NCBI GenBank assembly: GCA_001648575.1
Contig: LQXN01000053.1
Location: forward strand, 1 to 64,000
Length of the DNA: 64,000 bases
Direction: 5' to 3'
Origin: Sutcliffiella horikoshii DSM 8719
GTDB lineage: Bacteria > Bacillota > Bacilli > Bacillales > Bacillaceae_I
Shown here: one piece after another, positions 13,424 to 61,424 of the stretch
Numbering within the stretch: the first letter of the stretch is position 1
How the letters are laid out: each line of letters begins with the position of its first letter
Notes under the pieces: generated by a model
What the model was told of the DNA's origin: nothing
The model's database searches: none
What the model saw: only the letters and a program-made list of their open reading frames with translations
Translations under genes and position numbers: made by a program

Positions 13424-13467
13424 TAGGAAAACCATACCGGGTAACGACCTTGGTATGGTTTTTTATT
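13424..13467 (+). terminator. Intrinsic terminator of ald
   Basis: A hairpin AAACCATACC / GGTATGGTTT with six T residues follows the ald stop codon. Confidence 0.88.
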
Positions 13468-13476
13468 GCGAAAAAA

Positions 13477-13508
13477 CCAGATACCTTTTGTTTCTTAGGT
13501 ATCTGGCA
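13477..13508 (-). terminator. Terminator hairpin for the M24 peptidase gene, distal copy (flank of element B)
   Basis: CCAGATACC / GGTATCTGG forms a hairpin. Six A residues at 13471-13476 provide the T-run on the minus strand. The same 32 bases recur exactly at 13725-13756, and the mobile element lies between the two copies. Confidence 0.85.
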
Positions 13509-13723
13509 CTGTTGACAAAGCCCTTAATATTATTAAATTTGCATCCTGCTGTTGATCTTCGTTCCAGGCGCTTCGCTTTTCGCGGGCGGTCCGGAAGCCT
13601 CCTCGGGCTTACGCCCTGCGGGGTCTTCCCTGTCCCTTCCTCCCGCAGAAGTCTGCGCGCCTTCCACTACGATCAACACAGGTTTTGCATATCTCAAAGA
13701 TAAAATAACTTTGTTTACACACT
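13508..13723 (-). mobile_element. MITE-like element, complete copy B, inserted in a terminator
   Basis: About 216 bases with imperfect inverted ends: ACTGTTGACAAAG on the left and, reading inward from the right, AGTGTGTAAACAAAG. The interior holds the G+C-rich palindromic core with TGTTGATC...GATCAACA borders. On both sides lies the same 32-base sequence, the terminator hairpin of the minus-strand peptidase gene (13477-13508 and 13725-13756, identical; one base is shared with the element end). On the minus strand it is nearly identical to 52615-52831, indicating recent spread. It encodes no protein. Confidence 0.85.
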
Positions 13724-13724
13724 G

Positions 13725-13756
13725 CCAGATACCTTTTGTTTCTTAGGTATCTGGCA
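13725..13756 (-). repeat. Duplicated terminator hairpin, proximal copy (flank of element B)
   Basis: An exact repeat of 13477-13508 lies directly downstream of the minus-strand peptidase stop codon. It lacks its own T-run, so it can form the hairpin but may terminate poorly by itself. Confidence 0.9.
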
Positions 13757-13762
13757 TATATA

Positions 13763-14866
13763 TTATGCTTTTATTATTTGCAGATCTTTCGGATAGCTTG
13801 TCAACAATTCAATCCCGTTGTCGGTTACTAAAATGTCGTCCTCGATTCGTACGCCACCTACTCCTGGTTTGTAGATTCCAGGTTCAATGGTAAACGCCAT
13901 TCCTTTTTGTAGTTTCATCGTATTTGTTTCATTCATGGATGGGTATTCATGCACTTCTATACCTAGGCCGTGGCCGATACGGTGAGTAAAGAATTCTCCA
14001 TAGCCGCTTTCAGAAATGATTGAACGGGCAGTACGATCCAGCTGTCCAATCTCTACACCAGGTTTACAGATTTCCACTGCAGCTAGTTGTGCTTTGAGAA
14101 CAGTTTCATAGATTTCCTGCTGCTGTTCGTTTACTTTTCCAAAGGCAACTGTTCTAGTGATATCCGAGCAATACCCATTTAACACAACACCTAAGTCGAA
14201 GAGGACAAGGTCCCCTTCCTGCACCTGATCCAAGCCGGGCTTCCCATGAGGAGCGGCAGTCTTCAAACCTGTCAGTGCCATGGTCGAAAAGGACATCTGG
14301 CTGATGCCTTTTTTCTTCAGTTCGTACTCGATTGTCGCAACAAGTTCTTGCTCGGTAACTCCTTTTTTAAGGTGATGCACCCCAACTTCCACTCCGAAAT
14401 CGGCAAGCTTGGCCGCTTCCCTCAAAATGGAGACTTCCTGCTCATCTTTCACAAGGCGAAGCTGATACATCTTATCCTCTGCAGCGGCAAGATTCACACC
14501 CGGGAATATCCCTTCTAACTTATGTAAACGGGAGACAGTCATATGTTCCTGCTCAACAGCGAGCTTCTCAATAGAGATGTCTTGTTTTTTCACATACTCC
14601 TGAACCTTCTGCCAAGGATCATCTGTATCATTGTAGCCCACTATTCCATAAGCCCAGCCGGTTTTCTTCACCTGTTCTACTTCCATATTCGGACAGACAA
14701 TGGCAGGCTCATGATTAGGAAAAGCGAGAAGTCCCAATAGTCTTTCGTGTGGATCTGTGTAAAATCCGCTTATGTAAAATACGTTTGGGGTAGATGTCAA
14801 GAAACAACCGGACAAGTCCTCCTGTTTCAGCCATTCCACCAATTGCTGCAGACGATGTTCTTTCAA
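13763..14866 (-). CDS. M24-family Xaa-Pro dipeptidase/aminopeptidase
   Basis: This is a cytoplasmic metallopeptidase that cleaves dipeptides or peptides with proline in second position. The 367-residue protein has a creatinase-type N-terminal domain (about 1-130) and an M24 pita-bread C-terminal domain. Metal ligands are visible in order: Asp in LFDLGVVLNGY, Asp in SDITRTVAFG, His in HRIGHGLGIEVHE, Glu in TIEPGIY and Glu in GGVRIEDD. The TTG at 14866 was chosen because AAGGAG is 8 bases upstream. The GTG at 14875 overlaps that ribosome-binding site. Its terminator has been split by element B. Confidence 0.9.
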   Translation of the reverse strand: MKEHRLQQLVEWLKQEDLSGCFLTSTPNVFYISGFYTDPHERLLGLLAFPNHEPAIVCPNMEVEQVKKTGWAYGIVGYNDTDDPWQKVQEYVKKQDISIEKLAVEQEHMTVSRLHKLEGIFPGVNLAAAEDKMYQLRLVKDEQEVSILREAAKLADFGVEVGVHHLKKGVTEQELVATIEYELKKKGISQMSFSTMALTGLKTAAPHGKPGLDQVQEGDLVLFDLGVVLNGYCSDITRTVAFGKVNEQQQEIYETVLKAQLAAVEICKPGVEIGQLDRTARSIISESGYGEFFTHRIGHGLGIEVHEYPSMNETNTMKLQKGMAFTIEPGIYKPGVGGVRIEDDILVTDNGIELLTSYPKDLQIIKA

Positions 14867-15038
14867 TTCAGCCACTCCTTTATTGGGTAAATTACTTCTA
14901 GATACGAAGTTTAATACGTTTACATTAAGAGTATCAGGGAATCATACTTGTGTAAATTTTATTAGAAGGATTTTCAGATAAAAAAGAGAAGATTAACTGG
15001 TATGAAGAATTTAAGTTGGAAAGGGAGAGGTTGTTAAA

Positions 15039-40312: not shown

Positions 40313-40314
40313 TA

Positions 40315-40334
40315 AAAGCCTGGTTTCTAGGCTC
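40315..40334 (+). repeat. Duplicated terminator hairpin, proximal copy (flank of element C)
   Basis: AAAGCCTGGTTTCTAGGCTC lies directly after the MaoC-like stop codon. It matches 40548-40567 at 17 of 20 positions and keeps the hairpin but has no T-run. Confidence 0.8.
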
Positions 40335-40543
40335 ACAGTGTGTAGACAAATTTATTTTCGAGTAATAAATTCCCTGTTGATAGCAGTGGAAGGCGCGCAG
40401 ACTCCAGGGGGTGGAAGGGACAAGTAAGACCCCGCAGGGTTAGCCGAGGAGGCTTACGGACCGCCCGCAGGAAAGCGAAGCGCCTGCAACGGAGATCAAC
40501 TGTTCCACCAGATAACTTAACTAATTAATAGTTTGTCAACAGT
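40335..40543 (+). mobile_element. MITE-like element, complete copy C, inserted in a terminator
   Basis: About 209 bases. It begins ACAGTGTGTAGACAAA and ends GTTTGTCAACAGT, imperfect inverted ends. The interior is the G+C-rich palindromic core (CTGTTGATAGCAGTGGAAGG ... CGGAGATCAACTG). The terminator hairpin of the MaoC-like gene is present on both sides with three differences, so this copy appears older than B and D. Confidence 0.82.
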
Positions 40544-40547
40544 CTAA

Positions 40548-40571
40548 AGAGCCTAGTTTTTAGGCTCTTTT
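40548..40571 (+). terminator. Terminator of the MaoC-like gene, distal copy
   Basis: A hairpin AGAGCCTA / TAGGCTCT is followed by seven T residues. It is the downstream copy of the duplicated hairpin around element C and the one that keeps the T-run. Confidence 0.85.
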
Positions 40572-52585: not shown

Positions 52586-52614
52586 AAGCGGTTAACATTC
52601 TCTGTTAATCGCTT
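52586..52614 (+). repeat. Duplicated terminator hairpin, proximal copy (flank of element D)
   Basis: AAGCGGTTAACA / TGTTAATCGCTT forms a hairpin just after gapB without a T-run. It matches 52835-52863 at 28 of 29 positions. Confidence 0.9.
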
Positions 52615-52831
52615 CAGTGTGTATACAAAGTTATTTTATCTTTGAGATATGCAATAACCTGTGTTGATCGTAGTGGAAGGCGCGCAGACTTCTGCGGGAG
52701 GAAGGGACAAGGAAGACCCCGCAGGGCGAAAGCCCGAGGAGGCTTCCGGACCGCCCGCGAAAAGCGAAGCGCCTGGAACGAAGATCAACAGCAGGATGCA
52801 AATTTAAAAATATTTAGGGCTTTGTCAACAG
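52615..52831 (+). mobile_element. MITE-like element, complete copy D, inserted in a terminator
   Basis: About 217 bases, beginning CAGTGTGTATACAAAG and ending GGGCTTTGTCAACAGT. The core runs from GTGTTGATCGTAGTGGAAGG to CGAAGATCAACAG. It is nearly identical to copy B in reverse complement. The gapB terminator hairpin is present on both sides. Confidence 0.85.
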
Positions 52832-52834
52832 TCT

Positions 52835-52868
52835 GAAGCGGTTAACATTCTCTGTTAACCGCTTTTTG
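52835..52868 (+). terminator. gapB terminator, distal copy (flank of element D)
   Basis: A hairpin AAGCGGTTAACA / TGTTAACCGCTT is followed by TTT. It is the downstream member of the duplicated pair. Confidence 0.8.
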
Positions 52869-61207: not shown

Positions 61208-61424
61208 AGGTCAAATTGAATACTTGTTTGAGGACAAGAAGAAGCACCCGCTTCTCACCTGATTGACGCAGTTCATGCAGTTGGCAGGTTTTACGAGAAA
61301 GATTTTATCTTTTACTTATGTAATCGTAAAGTGTGGGTGTACATGTACATCCGCACTTTTTTGTTTGTACAAAGTGCAGTAAATTGTTCGTCAAACGGTG
61401 TTCGGAATAAACCTTGGAGGTGGC
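61208..61424 (+). promoter_or_regulatory. L20 leader (autoregulatory RNA of infC-rpmI-rplT)
   Basis: This leader binds ribosomal protein L20, which in B. subtilis causes early termination of the operon. It contains a terminator hairpin AAGTGTGG...CCGCACTT with a T-run (61328-61364). Upstream AAGCACCCGCTTCT and GACGCAGTTCATGCAGTTGGCAGG stretches are typical of the L20 leader family. The assignment rests on operon context plus the terminator. Confidence 0.8.

Follow-up and report, generated by a model that had tools for sequence, protein, structure and literature searches.

The target-site duplication of a transposable element is normally the fixed ruler mark of its transposase, and the direct repeats of the IS1182 family range from 0 to 60 bp. 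The closest described systems are IS1272 and TnSha1. In the available portion of Furi et al. 2016 (PMC4923244), both are described as deleting the hairpin that they target, and five of seven target hairpins were terminators by RNA-seq. The available portion of Wan et al. 2017 (PMC5678879) also reports that IS1272 insertion deletes the target hairpin, and its Figure 13 draws hairpin duplication (pathway b) as a hypothetical alternative beside deletion. Siguier and colleagues ascribe palindrome targeting to some members of the IS1182 family, for which, according to Wan et al. 2017 (PMC5678879), they gave no detailed data. Targeting of palindromes and terminators by IS1182 members is already known.

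The elements described here, from Sutcliffiella horikoshii DSM 8719, have in common with the account of Siguier and colleagues the family and the targeting of palindromes. As far as the available text of the other two papers goes (PMC4923244, PMC5678879), they are like IS1272 and TnSha1 in their IS1182-family transposase, in terminal inverted repeats of about 16 bp, and in targeting hairpins without a fixed sequence, several of which are transcription terminators. Unlike IS1272 and TnSha1, where that text describes deletion of the stem-loop with no target duplication, here the whole stem-loop stands on both sides of the element. The literature searched, ISfinder being outside that search, gave no case in which an IS1182 element or a MITE derived from one duplicates a whole hairpin. 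As far as that literature goes, the consistent duplication of whole hairpins is new, as is a MITE family that does so at scale. From comparison of genome sequences, we consider it highly probable that the element is a non-autonomous IS1182-family MITE which inserts at the base of terminator hairpins, with the whole hairpin as its target-site duplication.

The window, i.e. the whole stretch of 64,000 nucleotides that was analysed, carries such an element beside a peptidase gene (13763–14875, minus strand), for which “M24-type” is the name used in the preliminary description; NCBIfam peptidase models score it only below cut-off. The gene on the other side of the site encodes alanine dehydrogenase (TIGR00518, 594 bits, cut-off 392). 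Positions 13477–13508 and 13725–13756 had been described as identical over 32 bases, and direct comparison finds the identity exact. The hairpin proper is 30 bp long (13477–13506, distal to the gene, and 13725–13754, proximal to it). The trailing CA is the first two bases of the element in the left copy and flanking sequence in the right copy, so the match there is coincidental, and the element measures 218 bp (13507–13724, plus strand) rather than the 216 bp first given. The proposed duplication of the entire hairpin stands; its proposed length of 32 bp does not. The element starts CACTGTTGACAAAG and ends CTTTGTTTACACACTG; most other copies start with the usual left end, CAGACTGTTGACAAAG, relative to which the end at 13507 is two bases short. 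On the minus strand the peptidase gene is followed by a hairpin without a T-run, then by the element, the other hairpin, and TTTTTT (AAAAAA on the plus strand, 13471–13476), in agreement with the earlier remark that only the gene-distal copy keeps the T-run. A GC-rich fold-back core lies at 13551–13678 (plus strand). The element has no transposase gene; the only open reading frame listed there is an 82-aa frame from 13455, which begins outside it.

This element is one of many in the genome and no isolated oddity. A query of 401 bases matched the genome at 45 places. In the assembly of 4.68 Mb, 222 occurrences of the end motif CAGNNTGTNGACAAA were counted, versus one of the reversed motif, which suggests roughly 110 elements. 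Among the loci examined, both ends were found for 78 elements of 176–297 bp (207–221 bp in 72 of them). Three lie inside the window: the one described above, a second of 211 bp at 40336–40546 (minus strand; imperfect repeats at 40314–40334 and 40547–40567, 18/21 identical), and a third of 221 bp at 52615–52835 (minus strand). The third lies 3′ of the glyceraldehyde-3-phosphate dehydrogenase gene, between it and the adenosylmethionine decarboxylase gene, and its hairpin copies (52586–52614 and 52836–52864) are 28/29 identical. The same window holds an ordinary ribosomal protein L20 leader at 61230–61368 (RF00558, 89.4 bits).

Repeats anchored at the element ends are the rule among these elements. 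When gaps were allowed, 74 of the 78 elements had such a flanking repeat, typically a whole hairpin, versus 3 of 1539 in a control that paired left and right flanks from different elements; the duplication at 13.5 kb thus exceeds chance. The ungapped search found repeats of 20–35 bp (mean 26.1) in 68 of the 78 elements, 28 of them perfect (mismatched-flank control 2/1538), and of the ten that it missed the gapped version regained six. Four elements lacked a clear repeat in the gapped search. The repeat of L161 scores just under the threshold; the two ends of L179 carry different hairpins, and L167 has a hairpin at the right end at least (both by eye); L074 has no convincing flanking repeat. 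The ends of L179 and L167 show a pattern that recombination between copies could leave. Three sister species give the same picture, with an end-anchored repeat in 18 of 20 elements, the other two (L248 and L249) falling below the repeat threshold. When the flanks of the 68 elements with ungapped repeats are joined into an empty site, the centre of the best hairpin is no more than one base away from that of the repeat in 63 cases, and 49 of the repeats are at least 80% self-complementary in the better copy (12 of 2000 for random stretches). A T- or A-run lies on the outer side in 61 of the 68. At three sites (C5:353.7 kb, C45:5.7 kb and C67:347.8 kb) the order is hairpin, element, hairpin, element, hairpin, from which it follows that a duplicated hairpin is open to re-use.

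According to the preliminary description, the element inserted at the hairpin's 3′ foot and all of the hairpin was duplicated; a look for empty sites in relatives was suggested there as a check. Both the flanking repeats and the empty sites support this proposal. The best empty-site evidence comes from the 52.6-kb element: among 14 congeneric genomes compared (G010, 80% complete, lay outside the comparison), 12 have one clearly homologous hairpin and no CAG-ended element in the gap, and G009 and G005 have other sequence there. Four of the twelve (G003, G006, G007 and G011) carry a different core-type repeat further downstream in the gap. At 13.5 kb both flanking genes are present in 18 of 29 distinct loci compared, and 11 of these (ten congeneric plus G016) have a gap of 37–56 bp with a single hairpin, a correspondence that is mostly positional because the hairpin of the relatives has diverged and because DSM 8719 has an extra hairpin at about 13431–13460 that is absent from the relatives with the short gap. 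The remaining seven loci have longer spacers of 150–1008 bp. At a third site, G015 has its own element in the terminator and G012 has a single related hairpin. The identity of the two copies at 13.5 kb might also be expected if two hairpins predated the element, or if the hairpin travelled with it; however, the 12 congeners with one hairpin and no such element refute a pre-existing pair at 52.6 kb, and each site has a hairpin sequence of its own, in the short elements as in the full-length ISs, so that we regard this explanation as extremely improbable.

An IS1182 kinship had been put forward in the preliminary description, together with a search for the element ends near a transposase gene, and it is borne out: like ends bound IS1182-family transposase genes. 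Seven such full-length ISs were found in the genus and family, of which L112 and L165 score 477 and 483 bits with the NCBIfam model of the IS1182 family, NF033551 (cut-off 270). L112 (in G001) is 1513 bp long with an exact 30-bp hairpin repeat, and L165 (in G016) is 1550 bp with an exact 22-bp hairpin repeat. Four copies of one 1563-bp IS in G009 (L083, L088, L091 and L094) have exact repeats of 24, 20, 22 and 27 bp, so that one IS has left four lengths, each a complete hairpin. The transposase frame of L083 is split into 193 and 254 aa, and tblastn finds a like split in the other three; as each has an exact duplication, recoding or help from another copy in trans may be involved. The seventh, L080 in DSM 8719 itself, is a decayed IS with a degraded repeat (25/31 columns). 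The DSM 8719 assembly yielded two remnants of an L112-like IS and no intact mobiliser, although contig gaps may hide others. In L165 and L083 the end motif is followed immediately by its inverted copy, so that some full-length IS ends are themselves hairpins, and the transposase may see donor end and target as similar structures.

The wider IS sample was drawn by scanning one genome per species and consists of the best 80 of at least 500 relatives (62–80% identity), so that distant IS1182 members are unsampled. With flanks of 260 bp, a first scan detected repeats at 39 of 79 loci among the best of these at least 500; this figure was limited by the method, as many left ends sit 230–290 bp ahead of the gene. 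Both ends could be read (at most one mismatch, 30 nt of flank) in 70 of the best 80, leaving out L265, L267, L269, L270, L271, L272, L274, L275, L310 and L311; for loci with more than one candidate end, the pair with the best score was used, and the control was treated alike. Within this selection of the best 80 of at least 500, 68 of the 70 ISs have a flanking repeat of 19–42 bp, 66 of them perfect (mismatched flanks 0/345), and 66 of these 68 repeats reach a self-complementarity of 80% or more once up to two bases are trimmed, compared with 74 of 2000 random stretches treated alike. The two without a clear repeat are L340, whose two ends carry different hairpins, and L318, with a hairpin at the right end (both by eye). 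The 68 ISs of this best-80 sample span 32 genomes by record titles, and the source genera include Bacillus, Cytobacillus, Neobacillus, Peribacillus, Lysinibacillus, Ureibacillus, Sporosarcina, Domibacillus, Metabacillus and Saccharibacillus. Comparison among loci and genomes shows, to the extent that sequence data can, insertion, whole-hairpin duplication, centring on the dyad, variable length, re-use of sites and like behaviour in full-length ISs.

The repeat is centred on the dyad of the hairpin to the base. In the 66 perfect repeats among the best 80 of at least 500 ISs, self-complementarity is 0.91 in the true frame versus 0.21–0.30 when the frame is slid by 1–8 bp, and the corresponding values for the short elements of DSM 8719 are 0.80 versus 0.19–0.30. 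This frame-shift test is preferred to a correlation between the lengths of repeat and stem (r of 0.87 in the ISs of the best 80 of at least 500, and 0.04 in 26 perfect-repeat elements of DSM 8719), because the former value is partly built in, the stem being measured inside the repeat. In the same best-80 sample, the outermost pairs of the IS repeats are mostly A:T, A-rich before and T-rich after, and a T- or A-run lies on at least one outer side in 61 of 66. Pairing just outside the repeat is 0.77 at one base and 0.68 at two bases out in these ISs from the best 80 of at least 500; A:T pairing thus often runs past the repeat, so that the cut lies inside the outermost bases able to pair. It lies near the base of the GC-rich stem, inside the A/T tracts, with the result that the T-run remains with the outer copy.

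These features bear on how the hairpin is recognised. The mechanism that we infer as the best one joins the element to a cruciform at its two 5′ feet. The target palindrome would fold out into this cruciform, each 3′ end of the element would be joined to the 5′ foot of one of the opposite hairpins, and repair of the gaps would then copy the hairpin arm, whatever its length. The 5′ feet of a four-way junction are adjacent at any arm length, which would explain how one enzyme gives exact repeats of many lengths. This joining corresponds to pathway b as drawn in the available portion of Wan et al. 2017 (PMC5678879), of which the present data would be real cases. A rather unlikely alternative has the same insertion and duplication, with the target either a single-stranded hairpin (at a replication fork, in an R-loop or in a transcription bubble) or duplex DNA cut with a long and variable stagger. 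The targets resemble transcription terminators, so that transcription or replication could expose them, and pairing may reach past the repeat. Against it, repeats of 19–35 and 42 bp in the ISs (best 80 of at least 500) are dyad-centred to the base, which a duplex stagger does not predict, and no 10.5-bp phasing of repeat lengths was seen (n = 136), a weak test given that the spread is less than one period.

The inside of the element also points to the ISs. The core at 13551–13678 was found, at 70–85% identity, inside 32 of the 68 full-length ISs from the best 80 of at least 500, on either side of the transposase gene. In 28 of these 32 it lies between the left end and the gene in like orientation, and those 28 ISs are 1720–1755 bp long, versus 1523–1593 bp for 30 of the 36 core-less ISs of the same best-80 sample. 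On these sequence features the MITE is best read as IS ends plus core, minus the transposase. The 128-bp core has matches in 114 of 199 sampled genomes and 55 of 97 genera of the order, and it occurs also without the CAG ends; it may therefore be an older repeat carried by the IS. The element is short, has no transposase gene, and has IS-type ends, IS-like target behaviour and internal sequence also present in the IS. Its ends, target behaviour and core in common with full-length ISs identify it as an IS1182-type MITE, which agrees with the earlier description of it as MITE-like. It could instead be mainly a functional 3′ UTR or RNA module under selection, with mobility secondary. As RNA, it folds far better than shuffled sequences on both strands (z of -6.1 and -5.6), and the wide occurrence of the core would also fit; however, no Rfam family reaches the gathering score for element or core, the location of the element obeys the IS target rule, and 33 of the 68 ISs of like behaviour (best 80 of at least 500) have no core match at E 1e-4. 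This functional reading is accordingly improbable.

Two other candidates for a mobiliser or parent were rejected. L079, a 451-aa IS1182-like transposase of DSM 8719, scores 263 bits, just under the cut-off of 270; past the stop codon its copies are alike over only 74–75 bp, and neither a CAG end nor a hairpin repeat was seen there. An IS of 484 aa (L101–L105, with the relative L106) was weighed as parent because it sits inside core sequence, and is a separate IS with GAGGCCACTG ends and 8–9 bp repeats (by eye). This IS, of the IS1182 family with a transposase of 484–485 aa, lies in the core apex in six of six copies (L101–L105 in G013, L106 in G012). Its 8–9 bp repeats span the hairpin loop (by eye), and its insertions look like the “loop only” pathway c in the available portion of Wan et al. 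2017 (PMC5678879).

For the host gene, an insertion of the IS1182-type MITE would be nearly harmless, since termination would survive with the T-run beside the far copy. The gene would keep a working terminator at the far hairpin and gain a 3′ UTR as long as the element. More tentatively, and as a possibility to which we give somewhat less than even weight, a transposase without a fixed duplication length may read a four-way junction and copy its arm, with terminators favoured as targets and the core guarding against read-through. The family would then specialise in terminators because insertion between hairpin and U-tract regenerates both terminator and target, so that elements could pile up, and the fold-back core would protect the element from the read-through that each insertion creates.

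The duplication varies from 19 to 42 bp in the ISs (best 80 of at least 500) and matches the target hairpin, so that the structure of the target DNA, and not the enzyme, appears to set the cut positions. Together with deletion by IS1272, this would mean that the IS1182 family acts on a single type of target in two opposite ways, and the contrast would offer a handle on how a DDE transposase reads DNA junctions. For elements of this kind the results suggest a rule of settlement, behind genes and with the terminator preserved, and also a means to spot past insertions. They would also be a genomic hint that terminator palindromes, when folded as DNA, can be attacked.
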